A DNA stretch of 64,000 nucleotides. Source: Deltaproteobacteria bacterium. Its GTDB lineage: Bacteria; Lernaellota; Lernaellaia; JACKCT01. The stretch lies in contig JAOSJX010000007.1 in assembly GCA_027493875.1 (NCBI GenBank), positions 62,001-126,000 on the forward strand. Reading direction: 5' to 3'. The notes beneath the pieces are model-generated. The model was not told where the DNA came from and did no database searches. It saw only the letters and a list, made by a program, of their open reading frames with translations. The translations under genes were made by a program, and so were the position numbers. Numbering within the stretch: the first letter of the stretch is position 1; the number at the start of each line of letters is the position of its first letter. Positions 39,846 through 54,805 of the stretch are shown one piece after another.

Positions 39846-42648
39846 TCATCCGCAACACGAACCGGATCCTTCGCCATCATCATCGTCGGAGTCGGCGTCG
39901 TTTATCGCTGCGTCGTCGTCCAGGTCGTCATCCAAGATATCGTCCGTGTCGTCGTCCGCCACGTCGTCATCCGCGTCGTCGTCGGGCGGATTGAAGTCGT
40001 CATCGTCATCGGCCGTGTCGTCATCCGCGGTATCGTCATCGGCGGTGTCGTCATCGCCCGGGATGGTGGTCGTGGTGGTTGTGGCCGTGACGGTCGTTGT
40101 GGTGGTGTTGATCGCGAAGCCGGTGACCTTGATCTCGTCCACCGCCCAATAACGGCCCAGGGAGCCGGCGGCGTAGTGGAAGCGGAAGAAGACCTGCGGT
40201 TCCTCGTCGAGCTCGGGCAGATCATACCATTCTTCGCCTTCCTCGTCGGCCGCGAAGGACTCGATCACCGTCCAGGCCGCGCCGTCGGTGGAATAGGAGA
40301 CCTCCGCTGTTTCGAACCAGTTTTTGTCATAGAGATGGGCGAAGCCGAATTTGATGTCGGTGTAGTTGGACAGGTCGATCGCCGGGGAGATCAGCTGCTC
40401 GTCGAAATCGCCGAGGAGTCCCGCGGCCTGCTTGTCGGCCACGGCGAACTCGTCCACCAGGTAGGCCGACGAGCGGTTGCCGGGATTGGTATCGGTCCAC
40501 GAGTCGGACGTGGTCCCACCGTCCACGATCGTCCAATCCGTGAAGAAGGCGGCGGCGGGCGGATCGAAGGGCTCGTAGAAGACCCAATCGGGGCCGTTGG
40601 GCATGGCGCTGTGTTCAACCTGATTATGGTCCTGGTTGCCGACGGCGTCCGCGGCGCGCACGACGTAATAGTAACGGTGATTATTCGCCGCGGTGGTGTC
40701 CGTATAGGGCGAGGCGGCGACTTCCTTGATGGGCGCGCTAAAGTTCTGCCCGCCGGCGATGGTTGCGCGGTACACGCGATAGGTCACGTCGCCGGGATCG
40801 GTGGCCGGGTTCCACGCGAGCGTGACGGCGTGATCGCCGGCGACGGCGCTCGTCAGCCCGGCAAACGTCGGCGGGACGCAGTCTGCCTCCGCGGTGTCCG
40901 TTTTCTCGACGTTGAGATGGCCGTCGCCGTCGTCGGCGTCGAGGTAGGTCGCGGTGATCGTGTCGCCGTCCTGCAGTTGGAGGAAGCCGTCCGGAAGGGC
41001 GGCGGGGCCGCGCTTGGTGCCGATCGTGCCGCGATAGATGCCGGCGGTGGACGTGAGAGCCAGGGCGACGGTTTCGCCGCCGGTCTCGGTGTCGCTTTCG
41101 ATCGTGACGTTCACGGTGGGCCCGGAGAGGTCCGCGTCGCGCACGGTGATCTCGATGGTGTCCGAGCAGCCGTAAAGGTCGTCGATTTCGATACGTCCGT
41201 CGGAGTTCACGAGGATTTCCATGAGGGCGAAATAGGCCTCGTAAACGTCGAGGCGGCCGTTGCCGAACGTGTTGTCCTCGCCGGCCGTGCCGAGGTCGAC
41301 GGCCGTGGACCAGAGCGCGAATTTCAGCTTCCTCGACGGTGGCCTCCGGAAACGCGCCGCGCAGGAGCAGCACGGCGCCGGCGACGTGCGGCGTGGCCAT
41401 CGACGTGCCGGAGAGGTTGCCGTACTGGTTTCCCGGCATCGACGAACGCACGTCCGATCCGACGGCGCTGATTTCCGGTTTGATGGTGGCGTTGTCGCAA
41501 TCGGAGGGGCCGCGGCTGGAAAAGCTCGAAATGGCCGTGCCGCCCTGCAGGAGGGAGCCGACGGCGAACGTGTTGAACTGGGAGGCGATGCGGTTGCCGG
41601 GTGAACGCAGCGACGTCGCGCCGGGGCCCTCGTTGCCGGCCGCGAACACCACGACCACACCCGCGGCCTCCGCGGCGTCGATGAACGCGTTGAAATCGGT
41701 GCGGCACGAGCCGTAATAGCCGATGTGCAGCCCCCAGGAGTTGTTCACGACGTCGGGCACGTCGTCCATCGTACCGGGATTGCCGTCCGGGTCCGCGGAC
41801 CACTGAAAAGCTCCGACCGCGTCCGAGAAGATGTTGCCGCCGGGCACGTCGATGGTCTTGGCGCCGATCCACTTGGCGCCGGGCGCCATGCCGATCTGAT
41901 TGGCGCCGCCGTCGTCGCCGAGGATGGTGCCGAGGGTGTGCGTTCCGTGGTAGCCGGAATCGGTGGGGAAGGTCTGGCCGGCGACGGGATCGAACCACGC
42001 CTCCGCCGGCGTGACACCGCCCTCCAACCCGCGCCAGCGCGAGGCGAACGCGGGATGATTGCCGTCGGCGCCGGTGTCCTGATCGCACGCGAGCGCGCCG
42101 GTGCCGTCGATGCCGAGCGCCCAGAGTTCCGGCGCGCGGGAACTTGTGATGCCCGCCTCGATCGCGGCGATGGACGGCGCGGTGTTCATCACGGGTTCGC
42201 CTACGGGCTCGATGAGTTCGATGGGATAATCGAGATAGATGGACAGCACGTCGGGACGCGCGGCGAGTTTGTCGACGAACGCCGCTTTCGCTTCGAACGC
42301 GATCGCGTTGGCGATCCAGAACGCATGATGACTTTTAATCTCGCGCGTCGATTGGGCCGCCCCGGCGAGAGCGAGAAGGCCGGACTGCGTTTCGGCGGCT
42401 TTTTCCTGCAGCGCGGTGAGGACCTCATAGTGGCGCTGCGCGCGGCCCAGGCCGCGGCGGTCGGCGTCGCGCGACAGTTTGCCTAAGTCCACCGCGTCGC
42501 GGAGGGTGACGTAAATCTTGAAGTACTGCGCGTCCGACGTGGCGGCGGCGATCTGATCCTCGAGATTCGGATCGACCCAGGCCGCCGAGACCGCGCCGGC
42601 CGCTCCGAGAAGCGCGCCGCACAAAAGAACGATAACGAATGATCTCAT
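39846..42648 (-). CDS. Secreted subtilisin-like (S8) protease with FN3, jelly-roll and Asp-rich C-terminus ending SCCG (frameshifted)
   Basis: About 930 residues. Signal peptide (SFVIVLLCGALLGAAGAVSA), prodomain-like region, then the S8 domain: CDQDTGADGNHPAF (Asp near 191), SGYHGTHTLGTILGDDGGAN (His 237), FAAGNEGPG (Asn) and NLSGTSMATPHVAGAVLLLR (Ser 416). After an indel near 41325 come a calcium-rich beta region, an FN3-like domain (AVTLAWNPATDPGDVTYRVY), a jelly-roll/MAM-like domain (FYEPFDPPAAAFFTDWTIVD, LISPAIDLSNYTDIKFGFA), a Thr run, an Asp-rich linker of about 65 residues and the terminal GEGSGSCCG. It is probably an exported, surface-retained protease. The Asp-rich linker and the SCCG end recur at 48868-49589. 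Confidence 0.85.
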
Positions 42649-42818
42649 GACGATTCTCCCTCCACAATAAGCGGGAGGATTCTAACCCGGCTCGAAGATG
42701 AAAGGCCATAATGGCGAGTAGAAAGGTTCGGGACGAAAGGCGAGGGGCGAGCGGCGCTGGATCGTGGTGGAGCCGCGAGCGGCAAGCACTTGATTTGCCA
42801 TTCCCCACTCGCCGTTCG

Positions 42819-43810
42819 TCATTCGAATGGGGACGTGGGAATCGTCGGCTCCAGGGCGCTCGCGCAGTTGATTTGCCGGTGGCAGCCGAGCTCGCAGGCG
42901 CGCATCGCCTCGCTCGTCGCCGCGAACCCGGCGCCGTCCAGAATCGCCCCCAGATCCTCGCGCGCGATATTCCCGGCGGGCGCGAACAGCCCGCACAGCG
43001 AGACGTCGCCCCGCGGGTCGATGCAAAACCCGAAATCATACACGCGGCAGATCCCTCCATCCGAAACGCCGGGTCGGCCAGAAACGCGCCTGCCAGCGCA
43101 GCGCGTCGGGGGTTCAGGATCTTCGCGCCGGCTTCTTTGCGCGCGACGAGATCGTCGAAAACGGCGCGCCGGACGCCCTCGTCCGGATGCCAGAGGTCGG
43201 GATCGAGCCGCCAGTCGTCCGGACCGGCGGGGGCCGCGTGGGTTCGTCGCGATTTGCAGATAGACGCCGTTGACTCTCGCGTCGGCATCCAATTCGTCGA
43301 GAAACGCGGGGAGGAGCGCCATGTTCGCGCCCATGACGACGGTGACGATGTTCACCGGCAGGCCCGGCGCGTTCGCGGCCAGGTTGTCCAGCGCCTCCCG
43401 CGCCAGACGATAGGCGTCGCGGCTGCCGCGCACGAGGTTGTGAATCGGCGGCGGGCCGTCCAGCGACAGGTTGACGACGCGCGCTCCGGCCTCCACGATC
43501 CCGCGTGCTTCCTCGGGACCGATCCCCGGGCCGCTCGTATTGAAGTGAACGAGCGCGCCCGCTTCGTTCGCCGCGCGGACGATGTCGAGCGCGGCGCGGT
43601 GAAATATCGGCTCCCGCCGGTGAGGACGATTTCGACGCCCGGCGCGCGGGCGCCCAGCGCGCGGGCGGCGGCGATCCAGGGCTCGGGCGGCAGCTCGTTT
43701 TTGTCCCGGATCGGCGGCACGAAGCAAAATTTGCAGTCGTAACGGCACCGGTCCGTGATGTGAAAGGTGGCCCGCAGCGGCGGCACGGCGTTCTCCTTCC
43801 CGGCCGTCAC
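42819..43810 (-). CDS. Radical SAM/SPASM protein, frameshifted
   Basis: FHITDRCRYDCKFCFVPPIR contains CxxxCxxC. VEIVLTGGEPIF spans a frame change near 43610, followed by VHFNTSGPGIGPEEARGIVE, VVNLSLDGPPPIHNLVRGSR and VNIVTVVMGANMALLPAFL. Two more indels lie near 43240 and near 43060. SPASM-type cysteines close the protein (GGICRVYDFGFCIDPRGDVS, LCGLFAPAGNIA, RACELGCHRQINC). GTG 43810 is the likely start. The substrate is unknown; with the rSAM at 38616 it brackets the S8 protease, an arrangement seen in peptide-modification loci, but I see no precursor peptide. Confidence 0.82.
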
Positions 43811-43922
43811 GATAAACCGCCCCGCCCCGGAAAAGAAGGGCGAATCCCGCCTTCGAAGCCGTCTTTCGCAAGCCCGCTTACGTCCCGGCCGCGGGCGCCC
43901 TTGACGGCGCGTGTTCCGTAAT

Positions 43923-43940
43923 TATCTTGATATCAAGATA
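43923..43940. promoter_or_regulatory. Perfect 18-bp palindromic MarR-type operator
   Basis: TATCTTGATATCAAGATA is a perfect palindrome 27 bases before the marR start. It resembles the TATCTCGAATTCGAGATA box of quinone-responsive MhqR-type MarR regulators. It probably mediates autoregulation of the marR-FMN reductase-pirin operon. Confidence 0.7.
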
Positions 43941-43967
43941 TTTACCGTTTCGCCGAAAGGACGCCGC

Positions 43968-44429
43968 GTGCCCGTCACGGAAAACACCTCAGGCATTCAT
44001 CTCTGGCTGGTCCTCTGGAAAGCCGCCCGCGCGGTGGAAGCGCGGGCCGACGCCAGCATCCGGGCCATCGGGCTTTGCCGGTCGGATTTCGGCGTGCTCG
44101 AAGCGCTTTTGCACAAGGGGCCGCTGCCGGTGAACACCATCGGCCGCAAGGTGCTGCTCACCAGCGGCTCGATGACCGCGGCGGTGGACCGGCTGGAGCG
44201 CCGCGGATTGGTCCGCCGGCGGCCGGACGCCGCGGACCGCCGCGCGCGGCGCGTGCATCTGACGGCGGCGGGGCGGAAGCTCATCACGCGCGCTTTTCAA
44301 GAACACGAACGCGCGTTGGAGGAGACGGCGGCCACGCTCGCCCCCAAGGAACGCGCCGCGCTCGTCCGGCTGCTCAAAAAACTGGGTTTTGCGGCGGCGC
44401 AAGAAAACGACGAAAGGATCGCCTCATGA
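43968..44429 (+). CDS. MarR-family transcriptional regulator
   Basis: 153 residues from GTG 43968. The winged helix-turn-helix is complete: FGVLEALLHKGPLPVNTIGR, KVLLTSGSMTAAVDRLERRG (recognition helix) and LVRRRPDAADRRARRVHLTA (wing), followed by the dimerisation helix. It most closely recalls the MhqR/HosA-type group. The operator palindrome lies directly upstream, and the reductase start overlaps its stop (ATGA), so it is the first gene of a redox/quinone-type stress operon. Confidence 0.88.
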   Translation: MPVTENTSGIHLWLVLWKAARAVEARADASIRAIGLCRSDFGVLEALLHKGPLPVNTIGRKVLLTSGSMTAAVDRLERRGLVRRRPDAADRRARRVHLTAAGRKLITRAFQEHERALEETAATLAPKERAALVRLLKKLGFAAAQENDERIAS

Positions 44430-44994
44430 CCGTTTTTGTTCTCTCCTCGTCGCTGAGGAAGGAATCATGGAATACGAAACTCGCGAAGGCCGCGGCGGCG
44501 GAACTCCGCAGCCGCGGCGCGGACGCTCGGGCCGCGACGCTCGCGGATTACGCCATGCCGCTCTACGACCAGGACATTCAGGACCGCGACGGCATCCCGA
44601 AGGGCGCGCGCGATCTGGCGGACCGATTCCGCGACGCCGACGCGTTCGTCGTCGTCTCGCCGGAATACAACCATTCGATCTCCGGCGTCCTGAAAAACGC
44701 GGTCGATTGGATCTCGCGCCTCCGCCCGGTGCCGTGGCTCGACAAACCCGCGCTGCTCATGTCCGCGACCCCGGCGCCGGCGGCGGCCGCGCGGGCCTTT
44801 ATCAAACGCGCATTCCCTTTGAGGCCACCGGCGCCATGGTGCTCCCGCGCATGTTCAGCCTGCCCCACGCGGAGCGGGCGTTCGGCGGCGACGGATCGCT
44901 GGCCGACGAAAAGGTTGCGGAGCGCCTCGGCGCGGCCCTCGACGATTTTCTTCACGTGACCAACGCCTTGAACACCAAAGGAGATTCCGCATGA
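44426..44994 (+). CDS. NAD(P)H-dependent FMN reductase, frameshifted near 44808
   Basis: MTVFVLSSSLRKESWNTKLA contains the flavodoxin-like phosphate loop (SSSLRKxSxN). FVVVSPEYNHSISGVLKNAV and DWISRLRPVPWLDKPALLMS are the conserved FMN-reductase (ChrR/azoreductase-like) motifs. After the indel the C-terminus reads FEATGAMVLPRMFSLPHAER. About 189 residues. Two-electron reduction of quinones or azo compounds is the family activity. Coupled by ATGA overlaps to marR before and pirin after. Confidence 0.88.
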
Positions 44995-45689
44995 TCACGC
45001 TCCGAAAAGCCGATGAGCGCGGCGGCATGGAAATCGATTGGCTGAAGACGCGGCATTCGTTTTCGTTCGGCCGCTACTACGATCCCCGCCACATGGGCTT
45101 CCGCTCGCTGCGCGTCATCAACGACGACGTCATCGCGCCGTCCGGCGGCTTTCCCATGCACCCGCACGACAACATGGAGATCGTCACCTACGTCACCGCG
45201 GGCACGCTCGATCACGAGGACAGCATGGGCAACCGCGAATCGATCCGGCGCGGCGAGGTGCAACGCATGAGCGCCGGCACCGGCGTCGTGCATAGCGAGT
45301 TCAATCCGTCGCCGGACGAGGAAACGCGCCTGCTTCAGATCTGGCTTCTCCCCGCGAAAAACGGCATCGAACCGGGGTACGAGCAGAAGCGTTTTTCCGA
45401 CGACGAAAAACGCGACCGCCTGCGTCTGATCGTGTCGCCGAACGCGGACGACGGCACGATGACGATGCACCAGGACGCGTTTTTGTACGCGTCGATCCTC
45501 GGCGCGGGCAAAGAATTGCAACACGCGCTTGCGCCGGGACGCCACGCCTGGATTCAGATCGTGGCCGGCGCGATGGACGTGAACGGCCAAACGCTGCGCA
45601 CCGGCGACGGCGCGGCCGTCAGCGAGGAAACGGAACTGCGTTTCCGCGCCGACGAGGAGACCGAGTTTCTGCTGTTCGATTTGGCGTGA
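44991..45689 (+). CDS. Pirin-family protein (quercetinase-like bicupin)
   Basis: An intact 232-residue bicupin. The metal ligands are visible: GGFPMHPHDNMEIVTYVTAG (His-x-His) and MSAGTGVVHSEFNPSPDEET (His and Glu). SFSFGRYYDPRHMGFRSLRV is the usual N-terminal motif. Bacterial pirins oxidise flavonols or act as redox sensors. Here it is the third gene of a marR-FMN reductase-pirin operon, which suggests handling of quinone-like aromatic compounds. No frame break. Confidence 0.93.
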   Translation: MITLRKADERGGMEIDWLKTRHSFSFGRYYDPRHMGFRSLRVINDDVIAPSGGFPMHPHDNMEIVTYVTAGTLDHEDSMGNRESIRRGEVQRMSAGTGVVHSEFNPSPDEETRLLQIWLLPAKNGIEPGYEQKRFSDDEKRDRLRLIVSPNADDGTMTMHQDAFLYASILGAGKELQHALAPGRHAWIQIVAGAMDVNGQTLRTGDGAAVSEETELRFRADEETEFLLFDLA

Positions 45690-46112
45690 CGCGCGCGAGG
45701 GCCTCGGAAGGATAAAGGACGAAGGACGAAAAAGGGACAAGGGACGAGGTGCGAGGTACGAGGGACAAGCGACGAAAAACTCGCGTGCGGAATAACGGAT
45801 ACGAATCGAGCCCGCGCGCGGTAAACAACGCGAGTTCGGGAAACTCCCAAACTATTAAATAAAGCCTATAACGGTCCATTCTTGAAGTATTATTTTTCTA
45901 ATTTTTGCTTGACTACCCCCTCACGTGTTAGGATGTTTCGGTTCGGTGTTTTCGGCGATCCCGGGGGCAAAGGGATTTCCGAAGGATCGAAGATAAACAA
46001 GATACAGAAGACTTCGTTTAAGTTCATTGCGGCGTAACATCAGCGCCGCACCAAGGGAGAGGTACGTCAACCTTCAACCGGTCCAACACGCGCGCAAAAG
46101 AGGGAGGCGGTC
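45690..46112. other. Intergenic region with purine-rich degenerate repeats
   Basis: 45705-45780 consists of imperfect units such as ggacgaa, gggacaa and ggtacgagg. An AT-rich stretch (45855-45910) follows that could hold the promoter of the beta-helix gene, though I cannot place a convincing -35/-10 pair. No protein-coding gene is supported. Confidence 0.55.
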
Positions 46113-47143
46113 ATGGCGAACCAACATGTGGACCCCGATAGCGGCAACGATGCCAACAGCGGCGTGGATTGGGCGAACGCGAAGGAGCATCCCCAGGCCG
46201 CCGTGGACGCGCTGGCGTCCAGCCCCCGGTCGGCGAAACGTTCGTCTATCTCAAAGCCAATCCCACGAATCCCTATTCCGGCGGCCTCGACATGCGCGGC
46301 TTCGTGCCCCGGGGCGACGACGACGCGGCGCTGATCTTCGAGCCCCGCTCCACGGACGACGCGACCACGGTCTGGAACCAGGACAACTACGAGGGCCACA
46401 CCTACAGCCCCTTCGTCTCCACCCAAACCGGCACCTTCGACATCACGGCGGACGACAAACCCGTCACGCTGCCCATGCAGATCAGCGTCACGGACTGCGG
46501 CAAGATTATCTTCCGCGGCATCAAGTTCGAGGCGGAGGACGAGACGGACCCGCTGGGCGATCCGCTCCGCGTGAACGGCGGCTCCCAGGTGGAGACGGTG
46601 TATTGCCGCTTTGAGGAACGCGCCTCGGGCGTGCAGTCGTTCAACAATTCGGTCGTCGACGTGCAGAACTGCTATTTCCAGCGGAACCTGATCTCCGTGT
46701 ACGCGGGATACCGGGGCGCGGTGAACATGGTCGGGAACAATTACATCGTCGATCCGTACAAACACGCGGTCCTGGGCTGGATGGGGGCGCAGATTCTGGT
46801 CTCGCCGTGGGACGCGGCGTGGGATTACTACACGACGCAGATTCTGACGCCGATCCCGAAGGTATCGTTCAAGGCGGTGCGTCTGGTGGGTCAGTCGCGG
46901 CTGACGATCTGGCAGGGGTTCGGGATCGCCGAGGAGCTTTTGATCGGGAAGGTGAAGGTCTACAACCAGAACATCATCCTGCCGCCGGAATATCTGTGCG
47001 TGGTGCTGGAGTCGCAGTCGATGGTGACCGGGCGAGGGCAGTTCGAGTTCCTGACGCTGAACGCGAAGGGCGAGGACTCCTTTATCCCGGAAGGGCAGAC
47101 CTTCGTTTCGCAGGGCGACCAGGGCTGCCTGGTGCTGTCGTAA
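46113..47143 (+). CDS. Right-handed beta-helix repeat protein, frameshifted near 46222
   Basis: About 343 codons. The N-terminus MANQHVDPDSGNDANSGVDW with ANAKEHPQAAVDALASS is the DUF1565/pectate-lyase-like opening of parallel beta-helix proteins. After an indel at the C5 run near 46222-46226 the helix rungs continue (ETFVYLKANPTNPYSGGLDM, VETVYCRFEERASGVQSFNN, SVVDVQNCYFQRNLISVYAG, GAVNMVGNNYIVDPYKHAVL). No signal peptide is evident, so export is uncertain. Such folds bind or cleave polysaccharide, or form tail-spike-like fibres. The next gene starts 36 bases later. Confidence 0.72.
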
Positions 47144-47179
47144 CGTGATACGCTGAGGCCTTGAACCGGGACGGACGCG

Positions 47180-48890
47180 ATGACGGAGAAATACGTCCCC
47201 TTTTTGCAGGCGAAGCGGCGGCCGGACGCGGAGGGCTCGTTGCGCTCGGCGCCCGCGCCAACGCGGAATAGCGGCTACGTCCCGATCAAGCCGTCGGCGC
47301 CGGTTTCGTCGAATCCGTACGTCCCGCTCAAGCCTTCTTCCGGCAGACTCGCCGGCGAGCCCGAGTACCTCCCGATGGTGAAGGGGCGGGGTGGGGTGCT
47401 GCTCTCGCCGACCAAGGCGGGGAAGATCATTGATATGGAGCCCAGTGTCGATCCGACGCCGCTTCGCGACCGAATGGTCGCTGAACTTAGAGATGCCATC
47501 GCCGTGGCAAATGTCTGTGCGTACGGAGAAGGGGCGACGCGCGGCGATCCGTTTATCGTTCTGCTATGTCTTATTCGTTCGCGAGCGGTGTTTAACGCGT
47601 ACGCGGCGGATTCGATTGCTCAGCGAGACATTCGAAGCGCGACGATGATCGACGCCGATCTTCGATCGCCGAGCGTTTTTCCGGTTTGGCCTCTGTCTTG
47701 GGTCGTGAACAATCCCCAACAGATGCTCACAACGTTTCCGCATTTCCCGGAAAATTATATTGGATTTATCGGTGGCGATTGGGACGAGTGGTCCGGGGTG
47801 GAAATCACTTACGCGTCCGAAACCGAGCAACGCACTACACTGCGCATCGGTCATCCCACGACTTATGAAGGTGAAGTTCCGTTTTCTGTCCACCGGACGG
47901 TGACCGGTTCCTTCGGGCCATCAAATCAGACGCCGGAATCCGAAACGACAACCAATATGATTTACCTTTCGTTTATCCACCGGATCACGACGGGTGGGAG
48001 GCTGTTCCGGTTCATTTTCATGTGCGCCGAGGACGCGTGGAACCGCTCGAATAAATTGGGCGTGGCGAGTACGATGAACCATGTTGGACTGTCGTTGCCG
48101 TCAAGCGGATCGAAGGTGAGGATTTTTTTCGCTGAAAATCATGCTGAATGGAATCGAGATTCTGGTCGAGGAATCGCCCAGCGGCTTTGTTCATGGAATC
48201 AAGCAATTCGGTAAACCTATCCATACGTTGATTCCGGGTCTTACACGGCATGTTGATGACAACATTAAAGAATTTCGTCATCAAGAGGTTTTAAGGCACG
48301 CGGCTCGATTCGATCAGAATAACGGGATTCTGGAATACGCCTCCCGCCGGCTCGGGCAGGCGTGGAACCCAAGTTACCCCGCCTACTGGTACTCTATTGA
48401 AGGCACAGAACGTTTCTGGGGCGGGCCGCACGGCTGGTGCCAGCCATACACGCTCGATGTTTTGTTCAATGCGACCGATATTCCGGCGCCACTGCGCCTA
48501 CAATGCTTCGCACATCCAAGTGATCCGAGCGGAGATACGGACCCTATCCTCGACTTCCTTCGGGCCAATGATCGTTGGTTAGCTCCGAAAAGAGGCCTCT
48601 ATATCCCTTACGATGATCTCATCAATCGTGTCAGACCGGGTTCGTTCGTTTATATCAATAATCTTGAACACATTGCGATTTTCATCGCGTGGGAGAATTT
48701 TGAACGGAATTTCGCCACGTTTTTCGCGATCGGCGGGAATCAATGGCACGGGCGCGTCGTCATCACGCAAATGGTTGTGTTCCGCAACGCGGCGTACTGG
48801 ACTCCAGATACGGCTTTCGATAACAATCACTATTCAATCATCTGGCAGCCTCCCTTTAGAGACGGGTTTGGAATTGTTTCTCCGCGCTAA
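47180..48890 (+). CDS. Large protein with C-terminal CHAP/NlpC-like cysteine-peptidase segment (frameshifted)
   Basis: About 570 codons joined across an indel at 48123-48129 (T7). The N-terminus has tandem short repeats (GYVPIKPSAPVSSN, PYVPLKPSSGRLAGEPEYLP). A middle domain is unrecognised (FIVLLCLIRSRAVFNAYAAD, PENYIGFIGGDWDEWSGVEI). The C-terminal 240 residues contain GGPHGWCQPYTLDVLFNATD, YDDLINRVRPGSFVYINNLE and HIAIFIAWENF. This is the Cys...His arrangement of CHAP/NlpC-P60 amidase folds (a Cys at the start of a helix, then a GSFVYI-x-HIAIFI strand pair). The peptidase call is tentative. Base composition is clearly more AT-rich than in the flanks. Confidence 0.6.
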
Positions 48891-49589
48891 AAAATATTTC
48901 CCTGTGATTCTTACGGGACTCGTGGGCGCCTTGATATTCCGCACGGCGAGCGCGGCATCGACGGCGAAAAAATACGGCGGAGGACGCGGAGGGATTTTAC
49001 GGGGAAAGCTTTACCAACTACATTCCGAACGACTGGGAAGTTATCGATAACTATCCCGGCGGCGGTTCGTTGTGGTTTGTCGAGGATGATTGGTTCGTTG
49101 ATTGCCAGGAAATCGACGGAGATCAGACTTGTTTGACTGTTTCAGCGGCCGACGGCCAAGGGCCATGAAATGGCCGATACCACGCTTATCAGCCCTTTTA
49201 TTGATTGCGATTTCTGCGAGATCGATTGGATGCTTTATGCCGAATTTCCCGTCACGCTCGATTCCGCAACTGGTACGGCGAAGCTGGAATTATTGTATTT
49301 TGATGCATACGACGGTTGGCGTGTCGCACGAACCCTTGATTCGGATATGTTTACGCAATTTGACATAGCTACCGCTTCCACTCGTTACAATGGTGTTCCG
49401 TTTCGCTTTGCGTTGCGATTTTTCAACGCCATCGAGAACGCAGGCTCGGTCGCCATCGATTACGTCGGGATCGGTGCTTACGAACCAGACGAATACGAGC
49501 CGGACGACGATCTTGATGCCGACGATGATGATCTCGGCGACGACGATGACGACAACGACGACGACAATGCGTCGTGCTGTGGGTATTGA
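48868..49589 (+). CDS. Secreted jelly-roll protein with Asp-rich tail ending SCCGY (frameshifted)
   Basis: TTG start 48868 gives a basic signal peptide (LELFLRAKKYFPVILTGLVG followed by ALIFRTASA). After an indel near 48988, NYIPNDWEVIDNYPGGGSLW, FVEDDWFVDCQEIDGDQTCL and, after another near 49160, MADTTLISPFIDCDFCEIDW follow. The pattern (opening phrase, Trp-rich strand, AD-x-LISPxID) matches the jelly-roll domain of the S8 protease at 39846. The C-terminus is 30 residues of Asp/Glu with few others, ending NASCCGY. Presumably it is a surface-retained binding protein. It overlaps the previous gene by 23 bases. Confidence 0.72.
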
Positions 49590-51435: not shown

Positions 51436-51966
51436 ATGAAAAAATCCTCGACGTTTTTGTTGATCCTCGCGATCGCACTTTTCGCGTTGTCGTTCGCCTG
51501 CGGCGACGACGATGACGACGACGCGAAGATCACGAACGACGATCCGGGCTCGTCGGCGGCCGGTGGGGACGATGACGGCGGCGATGACGATGATACGAGC
51601 GACGATGATGACACCGCCGACGATGACGATAATGACGATGACGACGGCGACGACGACGACGACGATGAAACGGACGATGACGACGACACCGAGGAAGCGA
51701 TCACGGACGTCAGCATCGAGAATATGTCCATGAATCCCGATCCGGTCACGATCGGCCAGGGCGGGACGGTCCGGTGGACGAATAACGACAGCGTCCCGCA
51801 TTCGACCACCAGCGGCCAGCCGGACAACCCGGACGGCCTATGGGATTCCGGCCTTCTCGACCCGGGCGACACGTATTCCAGAACGTTCGATTCGGCCGGG
51901 ACCTACATCTATTACTGCAAAGCGCACCCGACCACGATGAACGGCTACGTGGTCAACGTGCAGTAA
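51436..51966 (+). CDS. Asp-rich cupredoxin lipoprotein 1
   Basis: An intact 176-residue protein. The lipoprotein signal has a lipobox ending at Cys22 (FALSFACGDD). Residues 23-88 are almost entirely Asp with some Gly/Thr, followed by a plastocyanin-like domain: VSIENMSMNPDPVTIGQGG, TVRWTNNDSVPHSTTSG (copper His 122), WDSGLLDPGDTYSRTFDSAG and TYIYYCKAHPTTMNGYVVNV (Cys161, His164, Met168). This is a complete type-1 copper site. The protein would be an envelope-anchored electron carrier on an acidic tether. It is the first of four intact homologues in a forward-strand run. Confidence 0.9.
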   Translation: MKKSSTFLLILAIALFALSFACGDDDDDDAKITNDDPGSSAAGGDDDGGDDDDTSDDDDTADDDDNDDDDGDDDDDDETDDDDDTEEAITDVSIENMSMNPDPVTIGQGGTVRWTNNDSVPHSTTSGQPDNPDGLWDSGLLDPGDTYSRTFDSAGTYIYYCKAHPTTMNGYVVNVQ

Positions 51967-52050
51967 CATTTCCTGCGCTTTGTCATAACACGCGGTCCGG
52001 CGCGGGCGTACAGTTTTTCGCCTGAACGATATTCACCCGGGAGAAAAACC

Positions 52051-52515
52051 ATGCGCCGTTTCGCCTTTTCCGCATTTCTCGCTCTCTTATCTGTTTTCGT
52101 TTTATCGGCCGCGATGACGGTCACCGCCTGCGGCGACGACGATGATGACGACGACAGCACCTACGGGGACGACGACGCGGCCGACGATGACGCGTCGGGA
52201 GATGACGACGCCGATGATGACGACGCCGGAGACGACGACGCCGACGTCGTCGATGTTTCCATCGAGGACATGACGATGAATCCGGACCCGGTGACGATCG
52301 CCGCCGGCCAAACGGTGCGTTGGACGAACAACGACAGCGTGCCGCACACGACGACCAGCGGCGAGCCGGACGCCGAGGACGGCCTGTGGGATTCGGGGAC
52401 GCTGGACACCGGCGACTCGTTCTCGCACACGTTCGACGAGGCCGGCACGTTCATTTACTTCTGCGCCGTTCACCCGGACACGATGACGGGATACGAAGTG
52501 ATCGTGGAGGAGTAA
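52051..52515 (+). CDS. Asp-rich cupredoxin lipoprotein 2
   Basis: 154 residues. Signal and lipobox end at SAAMTVTAC-GDDDD. An Asp-rich linker of about 40 residues leads to the cupredoxin: VSIEDMTMNPDPVTIAAGQT, VRWTNNDSVPHTTTSG (His), DSFSHTFDEAGTFIYFCAVH (Cys, His) and PDTMTGYEVIVEE (Met). The type-1 copper ligands are complete. It lies 84 bases after copy 1. Domain sequences are close enough to suggest duplication, whereas the linkers differ in length and register. Confidence 0.9.
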   Translation: MRRFAFSAFLALLSVFVLSAAMTVTACGDDDDDDDSTYGDDDAADDDASGDDDADDDDAGDDDADVVDVSIEDMTMNPDPVTIAAGQTVRWTNNDSVPHTTTSGEPDAEDGLWDSGTLDTGDSFSHTFDEAGTFIYFCAVHPDTMTGYEVIVEE

Positions 52516-52581
52516 CCGCCTCCGTGATCACGTGTTGACGCGTTCACTCGGTTTACAAGAGCTACCCGTGGGAGGAGATCG

Positions 52582-53240
52582 ATGATCAGGTCCTTAAAAG
52601 TGGAAGCCGCTCGACGTTCGCCCGTTCCATTCTCTGGATCGTGCTGCTGGCGGCCGTCGCCGGCATGGCCGGAATGCTCGTCGTGGCGTGCGGCGGCGAC
52701 GATGATGACGATGACAACGATGACGCCGGCGACGACGATTCCGGCGCGGCGGACGACGATGCGACGGACGACGATGCCGATGATGACATGGATGATGACG
52801 CCGATGACGATATGGACGATGACGCGGATGACGACGCGGACGACGACATGGACGACGACATGGATGACGACGCGGATGACGACATGGACGACGATGCCGA
52901 TGATGACGTGGACGACGACGATGACGATACCGGCGACGACGACGATGACGACACGTCGGGCGGAAGCATCGCTGACGTCTCCATCGCATCCAGCACGATG
53001 AACCCCGATCCGGTCAACATCAGCGTCGGCGACACGGTGCGCTGGACGAACAACGACGGCGTCCCGCACACCACCACCAGCGGATCGCCGGGAAACCCTG
53101 ACGGCGAGTGGGATTCCGGGACGCTCGGCAACGGCGACTCGTACTCGCACACGTTTACGGTCGCCGGCACCTACACCTACTACTGCAAGATCCACGGCGT
53201 CGCGATGTCCGGCTACGAGGTGATCGTCAGCGCGGACTAG
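52582..53240 (+). CDS. Asp-rich cupredoxin lipoprotein 3 (indel near 52610)
   Basis: About 219 codons. MIRSLKVEA, then in another frame ARSILWIVLLAAVAGMAGML and VVAC-GGDDDDDD (lipobox), give a signal that is split by an indel near 52610. The Asp linker is the longest of the family (about 85 residues, with Met-Asp and Ala-Asp repeats). The cupredoxin domain has VRWTNNDGVPHTTTSG, SYSHTFTVAGTYTYYCKIHG and VAMSGYEVIVSAD, with His, Cys, His and Met ligands kept. The gene is followed by a strong terminator at 53260. Confidence 0.85.
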
Positions 53241-53569
53241 ACGACGGGGAACGGCAACAAAAAAAAAGGCGGCCCGCGCCGCCTTTTTTTTATTCGCGCG
53301 GGCCGGACCGCGCGCGGTCGACCGCCGGACACCGCGCGTTCGTGAGCGTTCTTTGTAACAACGCTCCGGCTTCCCGACGGTTTCGCCCTCATTTGACCGG
53401 CTCGACGGAGCCCTCGCTTCCGCGGCCAACCCGCCGATTCTCCACCGGCTTTCGAGCCGCGCGGCCCGGCCGTTGCAAGCCAGCCCACTGACCTTCGTCA
53501 TACGGTCCGGTTTCCCGACCCCGATACGCTTGGTACTCGAAACGTTGAGTCCAGAAACGGAGGTCCGAC
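53241..53569. other. Intergenic region after cupredoxin 3
   Basis: It contains the terminator at 53260-53292. Beyond that I see no gene or clear motif. Confidence 0.5.
53260..53292. terminator. Bidirectional rho-independent terminator
   Basis: An A-run, then GGCGGC...GCCGCC and a run of at least eight T. The A and T tracts on both sides allow function on either strand. It ends the cupredoxin 1-3 cluster. Confidence 0.85.
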
Positions 53570-53875
53570 ATGAACATGAACAGGTTTACGAAAATCGGGG
53601 CAGCGCGCGCCGGCAACGGCTCGCTCTTCTGGATGCTGGCCGTGCTTTTGGCGTCGGTGTGCCTTTTCCTTATGGCCCAGACGGCCTGCGTCGGCCAACC
53701 GGACGACGAGGCGGCGGACGACACCGCGGGGAACAACGACATCCGTCTCGATTTCGGTGCGGACAACGACGCTCCGGACTCGAATGGTGACGTGGTGATC
53801 CCGACGACGACGATGCCGCCGACGACACAGTCGGAACCGGAAACCGTCAAACCCGGGACGACGAACGAGAAATGA
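53570..53875 (+). CDS. Degenerate cupredoxin-lipoprotein relative lacking the copper domain
   Basis: 101 residues. The N-terminal part (MNMNRFTKIGAARAGNGSLF, WMLAVLLASVCLFLMAQTAC) matches the signal peptide and lipobox of copy 4 (MSRFTKSKTASGADTRGFW...HTAC). After the Cys comes a short acidic stretch (VGQPDDEAADDTAGNNDIRL), then a Thr/Pro-rich end with no cupredoxin. It is probably a truncated paralogue, or a gene that kept only the anchor. Confidence 0.6.
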   Translation: MNMNRFTKIGAARAGNGSLFWMLAVLLASVCLFLMAQTACVGQPDDEAADDTAGNNDIRLDFGADNDAPDSNGDVVIPTTTMPPTTQSEPETVKPGTTNEK

Positions 53876-54223
53876 CGACACGACCCGGTAAACGCCAAAC
53901 CATGGAGGTGCGAGGCGGACGACCGAGCCGCAACGGCTCCCGCCTCGTGCCTCGACATCGGCCGCGGCCGAAACCCAAGCCCGTCATGTTTGTTGGCTCC
54001 CAACGTAAGCAGGCATGCGATAACGCGCACTCTCTTTGCCGAACCAGGCCTGATAAAAATAAGGGGTATTCAGTAACTCGTCGATTTGACAACGTTATTT
54101 TCGTTGCCTGGCGCCCGGCTTTCGGTTGGCGAGCCGGCTTACTGAGCTTTGTCATAGGAACCGCGCTCGGCGCGGCTCTACCCTGAAGCCAATTGAAATT
54201 TCATTTTGACTTGGAGGTTGCAG
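53876..54223. other. Intergenic region before cupredoxin 4
   Basis: About 350 bases with no supported gene. A TTGGAGG ribosome site lies at its 3' end, immediately before the cupredoxin 4 start. Confidence 0.5.
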
Positions 54224-54805
54224 ATGAGCAGGTTCACGAAAAGCAAAACGGCAAGCGGAGCCGATACCCGAGGTTTTTGGATGGTGATGGCTTTGCTTGC
54301 GGCGCTCTGCGCTCTGGCCGTCACGCACACGGCGTGCGGCGGCGACGACGACGACGATGACGACAACGATGACGCGTCGGACGACGATGCGGCCGACGAC
54401 GACATGGACGACGACGATGACGCCGATGACGACGTCGACGACGATGCGGACGATGACGCCGATGACGACGTCGACGACGATGCGGACGATGACGCCGACG
54501 ATGATGATGACGATGACGATACCGCCGGCCCGCAGACGGTCGATGTGTCGATCGTCGGGATGACGATGGTCCCCGACCCGGTCACGATCGCGGTCGGCGA
54601 TACGGTCCGCTGGACGAACAACGATCTCGTGGGCCACACCACGACGAGCGGCTCGCCCGGCGCGCCGGACGGGACGTGGGATTCGGGAAACCTCTCCAAC
54701 GGGGACGACTTCGAATTTCTGTTCGAGGCGGCCGGGACCTACACCTACTACTGCAAAAATCACTCGGGGACGATGAACGGTTACCAGATCATCGTGACGG
54801 AATAA
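54224..54805 (+). CDS. Asp-rich cupredoxin lipoprotein 4
   Basis: About 193 residues from ATG 54224, chosen for the GGAGG site eight bases upstream. Signal and lipobox: FWMVMALLAALCALAVTHTA-C. An Asp/Ala linker of about 60 residues has a repeated DDDVDDDADDDA unit. The cupredoxin reads VDVSIVGMTMVPDPVTIAVG, TVRWTNNDLVGHTTTSG (His), DFEFLFEAAGTYTYYCKNHS (Cys, His) and GTMNGYQIIVTE (Met). It is followed by its own terminator at 54843. Confidence 0.9.
   Translation: MSRFTKSKTASGADTRGFWMVMALLAALCALAVTHTACGGDDDDDDDNDDASDDDAADDDMDDDDDADDDVDDDADDDADDDVDDDADDDADDDDDDDDTAGPQTVDVSIVGMTMVPDPVTIAVGDTVRWTNNDLVGHTTTSGSPGAPDGTWDSGNLSNGDDFEFLFEAAGTYTYYCKNHSGTMNGYQIIVTE

Follow-up and report, generated by a model that had tools for sequence, protein, structure and literature searches.

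We analysed a stretch of 64,000 nucleotides (hereafter the window; assembly GCA_027493875.1, contig JAOSJX010000007.1, positions 62,001 to 126,000) from a bacterium of the class Lernaellaia, in which two secreted proteins, an S8 (subtilisin-like) protease and a small protein, end in a Cys-containing tail behind an Asp-rich linker. As judged from the sequences, this tail is well supported as a sorting or anchoring tag, because it joins a low-complexity tether to a short, invariant Cys motif on many unrelated secreted proteins, is conserved among orthologs and nearly excludes N-terminal lipoboxes. We further consider it probable, at roughly 0.58, that the tail is a tag for surface sorting and lipid anchoring at the C-terminus, namely a MYXO-CTERM signature which has lost or never had the transmembrane helix and the arginine cluster, and for which paralogs of Lgt are the candidate enzymes.

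The tail of the S8 protease (...DDDDGEGSGSCCG) ends in GEGSGSCCG, with its stop codon at 39846-39848 on the minus strand, and that of the small protein (...DDNDDDNASCCGY) ends in NASCCGY, with its stop codon at 49587-49589 on the plus strand. Both tails lie where an earlier note on the window had put them, each directly before the stop. The Asp-rich linkers, delimited from the sequence, span 39875-40058 (minus strand) in the S8 protein and 49486-49568 (plus strand) in the small protein. The tags themselves are SCCG at 39849-39860 (minus strand), assigned from the sequence and the genome-wide pattern and adjoined by the stop codon, and SCCGY at 49572-49586 (plus strand), assigned from the sequence.

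The counts for the window's own genome (G000; 5.2 Mb, 28 contigs, 78% complete) derive from pattern searches and fetched stretches of about 1.45 Mb, which were picked to cover tag sites and therefore form an enriched sample, with the exception of contig C2, which was included whole (397 kb). In these stretches, 81 open reading frames (ORFs) combine an Asp-rich tract and a Cys tag with a stop codon immediately after it, so that the motif noticed earlier on two proteins is in fact carried by dozens. The most frequent forms are GGCCGC (20), GGCGC (10) and GGCCG (9), followed by DGCGC, ASCCGC and SGCCGC, and SCCGC also occurs; the core is (C)CGC or CCG at the terminus and not SCCG, as had been proposed. 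CCGC followed by a stop was found at 37 sites in the genome as opposed to 3 for the reversed control pattern, and DD..CGC-stop gave 62 matches against 1 for the control, overlapping matches included. Additional pattern searches returned many further Asp-Cys tails. The tag is present on 80 of the 90 Asp tracts near a C-terminus and on 1 of 92 other Asp tracts in the tag-enriched sample; on contig C2 alone the corresponding figures are 12/14 and 1/37. This contig contains 13 tagged ORFs in 397 kb, which extrapolates to about 170 per genome. TGA, TAA and TAG all occur as stop codons after the tag.

An alignment of 41 tagged proteins from five genomes revealed C and G as the sole invariant residues of the tag. 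The proteins bearing it are diverse and include S8, trypsin, reprolysin-type and C25 peptidases, kelch and FG-GAP proteins, GDPD and a glycoside hydrolase. Type I signal peptides are found on nearly all of them, and in the sister genomes almost every intact tagged protein has one that includes an AxA-like site. The tag was found on only 1 of 46 predicted N-terminal lipoproteins as opposed to 41 of 79 other proteins with a signal peptide, where starts and lipoboxes were called by simple rules of our own. The protein terminates at the Cys motif, at most five residues following the first tag Cys; no hydrophobic stretch is present in the last 45 residues of the tagged tails, and the tagged proteins have no arginine-rich cytoplasmic end. 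A helix concealed downstream and reached by readthrough or frameshift was rejected, as no frame contains one, save for apparent signal peptides of the next genes. There was no NCBIfam model for the tag among the families listed, and the tails lack the combination of signature and helix that defines LPXTG, PEP-CTERM or GlyGly-CTERM. One tagged family has tandem Cys-rich repeats (CNEETLACDDTGNPCDEGEECNE) and the C-terminus EGEVTGGCCGCG, and occurs as tandem duplicates (L131:10808-16481, L130:11315-11785, L121:17375-19813 and L152:4306-5355).

This diversity bears on a metal or redox role, in which secreted proteins that are otherwise free would bind metal ions through the Asp-rich tract and the CC or CXC pair, or would expose a dithiol there. 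Both Asp and Cys coordinate metals well, and there are known cases of C-terminal Cys pairs that act in redox chemistry or metal binding; however, proteases, hydrolases and kelch/FG-GAP proteins bear the same tail without a common chemistry, and the position of the tag is fixed at the terminus, which makes such a role improbable.

The closest known signature is that of MYXO-CTERM, in which a GCGC motif (CC in TraA), its Cys being invariant, precedes a helix and arginines; in the published model, lipidation by an unknown, predicted Lgt-like enzyme is followed by cleavage by myxosortase and transport by the type II secretion system (T2SS) (PMC11980579). In all 81 tails a linker leads to a signature motif of the generic GCGC kind, in which Cys is invariant, and the tail corresponds to a MYXO-CTERM signature that stops about where cleavage would end it. 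Matches to TIGR03901 over the cut-off are present in every genome of the class (1-6 each), and those inspected have the helix. Several of these true MYXO-CTERM proteins share the Asp linker and GCGC, which are then followed by helix and arginines, as in DDNDDDDDGCGCSVTSGK-helix-RRSR and, in G000, DDNDDDDDGCGCSVTSGKASGFALPVGMLAIGILAFGLGLRRSR. TIGR03901 is absent among the 25 commonest families listed for the 41 tagged proteins. From the sequences, the tag is best read as a helix-free MYXO-CTERM variant and not as an unrelated new system. The earlier suggestion of a possible new sorting signal is therefore retained as regards sorting or anchoring on many unrelated secreted proteins, while its novelty is halved: the signature is that of MYXO-CTERM, of which the same genomes have true examples and mostly a myxosortase, and what is new is the variant without helix.

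The earlier note had also proposed to check whether a dedicated transpeptidase or protease co-occurs with the motif. The myxosortase core (Mrt_core) scored over the cut-off in four genomes (G000, G004, G005 and G006), just below it in G003 and weakly in G002, but the tag-rich genome G001, which is 99% complete, gave no match to PF02517 (CPBP protease). A CPBP protease as an obligate partner of the tag is accordingly not supported. Small-protein genes lying side by side in clusters, with MYXO-CTERM-like tails that include Asp linker and helix, were additionally seen at G000:C25:4013-4951 and G005:C122:68928-70405.

The tail is present in all seven genomes of the class, and its type follows the family, with CCGC and CGC in f1, SGCCG in f2, and GGCGC and SGCGC in f3. 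DD..CGC-stop gave 62, 70, 62, 6, 41, 62 and 14 matches in the seven genomes, where one tail may count repeatedly. In 379 bacterial genomes outside the class there were 0-5 matches, at or near chance, and a single genome (G022) had 9, mostly from one repeated element. GTDB r220 returned five matches to the strict pattern, none of them with an Asp linker, although sequences of the window's own lineage may be concealed in that collection. Orthologs of the S8 protease were found in all six sister genomes with 52-66% identity, and those that are readable end in EEGCCGC, SGCGC or GGCGC; the G001 sequence breaks off at GGCG, and G003 and G004 have two or three variants, such as FCGG and SGGCA. Relatives with unrelated C-termini, named earlier as the observation that would speak against a sorting signal, were thus not what we encountered, since readable S8 orthologs in most sister genomes keep the Cys tail.

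A second likeness is to N-terminal lipoproteins. The Asp lipoproteins of G000 begin with C-G-[GCD]-[GD]-D..., the mirror image of the tag D...-G-G-C, and Cys-x-Cys occurs at the lipidated Cys in 15 of the 52 predicted N-terminal lipoproteins of this genome. The window itself contains three tandem N-terminal lipoproteins (51436-53240, plus strand; ORFs 51436-51966, 52051-52515 and 52641-53240), in which the Cys-Gly-Asp tract is N-terminal and the tag is lacking. They fall in a tandem family of small N-terminal lipoproteins (window 51436-54805) with a cupredoxin-like domain, recognised by eye, and a long Asp linker directly behind the lipobox Cys.

Lipid-free anchoring or cross-linking by disulfides, in which the C-terminal Cys residues would pair mutually or with an S-layer or surface receptor and the Asp tract would be a mere spacer, has some appeal, as the vicinal Cys residues are exposed at a flexible end, many tagged proteins contain few other Cys, and CGC and CCG are plausible thiol motifs. 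Nevertheless, it leaves three observations unexplained, namely that N-terminal lipoboxes are nearly excluded, that the motif is identical with the GCGC of MYXO-CTERM tags in the same genomes, and that the tag mirrors the lipoproteins, and we regard it as unlikely, albeit worth keeping in mind.

As a rule, a linear C-terminal signal is lacking in T2SS substrates, which counts against the idea that the tagged proteins are simply released, or that the tail is clipped off. This idea draws on the presence of T2SS genes, with GspG, GspJ and GspK lying on the window's own contig, and on T2SS-dependent lipoproteins of other bacteria, which are guided by Gly/Asp motifs beside the lipidated Cys (PMC12802150). 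The same Gly/Asp composition beside Cys is seen here on both tagged proteins and N-terminal lipoproteins. Recognition alone, however, fails to explain the invariant Cys, and release or clipping appears quite unlikely.

If the tail is a surface-sorting and lipid-anchor tag, as we favour, the pathway might run as follows. An ordinary signal peptide would direct the protein to Sec for export, a step supported by the sequences, and in the periplasm an Lgt-like enzyme, for which two class-specific Lgt paralogs are candidates, would lipidate the C-terminal Cys in (C)CGC or CCG. As there is no helix to remove, myxosortase would be unnecessary, and the one genome without a detectable CPBP protease (G001) is consistent with its being dispensable. 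The lipid-anchored protein could then pass the outer membrane via the T2SS, the components of which are present, and the Gly/Asp stretch beside the Cys would be both tether and sorting motif, the role it has in N-terminal surface lipoproteins, where it follows the lipidated Cys.

Lgt loci (PF01790) number three in each of the seven class genomes, as opposed to mostly one in 58 other genomes, among which three were found only in G034. Group I, which is part of an lspA-lspA-lgt operon, clusters with the Lgts that occur as a single copy in other phyla; the tandem arrangement of two lspA-like (signal peptidase II) genes upstream of it was seen in several class genomes (L281:8643-9447 and L298:5452-6566, with L284 and L287). 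Groups II (7/7 genomes) and III (6/7) form one class-specific clade with supports of 100/99 and 100/97. By alignment, both paralogs belong to the Lgt family, since they keep the signature Arg as well as the YG..R..E..RGD region of the C-terminal part. PF01790 matches most members with E of about 1e-51, and the comparison with the Lgt structure 5azb gave 1.6e-11 and 6.4e-10 for the two paralogs. The cut-off of canonical Lgt (TIGR00544, 118.9 bits) was narrowly missed by the one member each of groups II and III (111.7 and 110.5 bits), and group I reached 158.3 bits. On this basis we infer that paralogs II and III are candidate tag-lipidating enzymes. That a dedicated Lgt-derived enzyme lipidates the C-terminal Cys of helix-free, folded, Sec-exported proteins in a proteolysis-free pathway, and that a like activity is the missing lipidation step of MYXO-CTERM, is a tentative proposal which may well prove wrong. 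The gene neighbourhood of the paralogs is conserved inside families and gives no pointer to the tag, and the tagged genes near them in G002 and G005 are expected from the frequency of the tag. In the literature we found nothing direct on lipidation of a C-terminal Cys or on Lgt paralogs.

Several points weigh against a lipid anchor attached by these enzymes. The Lgt paralogs are not consistently adjacent to tagged genes, and G003 lacks a group III Lgt yet has the tag. G034, the only outgroup with three Lgt loci, has divergent, non-orthologous ones. Given their common ancestry, the co-occurrence of the Lgt paralogs and the tag may be a single evolutionary event. A tail that lacks a helix is not retained at the membrane, and an integral enzyme would thus need some other way of recognising it. 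Finally, the link to the T2SS comes from the presence of its genes, and the lipidation and surface location of the tagged proteins are deduced rather than observed. Two further observations concern these genomes: in place of group III, G003 has a GNFFNSE-type Lgt (L238; G003:C8:20319-21050) close to that of another phylum (G054), and G034, one of the outgroups tested together with G045 and G022, gave 27 MYXO-CTERM matches at E up to 1.

Both tagged genes of the window are split. The reading frame of the S8 protease breaks off near 41300, and the gene consists of two overlapping ORFs on the minus strand: the first (40738-42648; start MRSFVIVLLCGALLGAAGAVSAAW) encodes the signal peptide and catalytic domain (PF00082, 1.2e-41), and the second, in a different frame (39846-41660), the remaining protease, a choice-of-anchor J domain, a linker that is first T-rich and then Asp-rich, and the C-terminal tag. 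The choice-of-anchor J (jelly-roll) domain lies at 40125-40580 on the minus strand (residues 361-512 of the second piece; NF038128, 37.1 bits, cut-off 30). In the small secreted protein (48868-49589, plus strand), the signal peptide is read in another frame than the tail; the tail frame is open only over 49137-49589, and at least one frameshift lies upstream of 49137. The N-terminal signal peptides and related jelly-roll domains previously ascribed to both proteins consequently hold for the S8 protease, whereas the signal peptide of the small protein is out of frame with its tail and the domain-profile search of the small-protein fragment gave no family match.

Two Lgt genes of the same assembly are likewise split by frameshifts, so that assembly indels are the likely cause in the window genes, too. 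Frameshifts are common in this assembly (78% completeness) and affect conserved genes as well (window 39846-42648 and 48868-49589; L239/L249/L250 and L246/L248), which suggests indel errors and not pseudogenes. They might also be taken to mean that the tails are truncated or decayed, functionless MYXO-CTERM tags, or an artefact of an indel-prone assembly. This is effectively refuted, as intact tagged genes are conserved in other genera, in genomes that are 96-99% complete, the S8 orthologs retain the tag, and no helix follows downstream in any frame.

The sorting tags of the cited literature combine a motif with a membrane helix, by which the protein is retained until it is cut by an enzyme. 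If our interpretation is true, a helix-free tag present, by extrapolation, on considerably more than a hundred proteins per genome would mean that the Cys motif alone can suffice, and it would provide a handle on which enzyme lipidates the MYXO-CTERM Cys, with the lineage-specific Lgt paralogs as direct candidates.

Compared with known systems, the tag resembles N-terminal bacterial lipoproteins (Lgt, LspA; surface-exposed via the T2SS) in that the Cys stands beside Gly, followed by an Asp tract, but it differs in that its Cys is C-terminal and that it lacks both a lipobox and a signal peptidase II site. JDVT-CTERM, Synerg-CTERM and CGP-CTERM are likewise C-terminal sorting signals with an invariant Cys, have CPBP protease partners and bear a helix. 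With GlyGly-CTERM/rhombosortase, PEP-CTERM/exosortase and LPXTG/sortase the tag shares a short C-terminal signature on many unrelated secreted proteins; in contrast, those signals have a membrane helix and a basic cluster, and a substrate Cys is not known to be their modified residue (cf. PMC11980579). The greatest likeness is to MYXO-CTERM (TIGR03901) with myxosortase: an invariant Cys in GCGC or CC at the C-terminus after a disordered linker, borne by dozens of unrelated Sec-exported proteins, in a class that also has true MYXO-CTERM proteins and mostly myxosortase. The tag described here differs from it in having a long, Asp-rich linker and neither transmembrane helix nor arginine cluster, and in being abundant even in a genome without a detectable CPBP protease.
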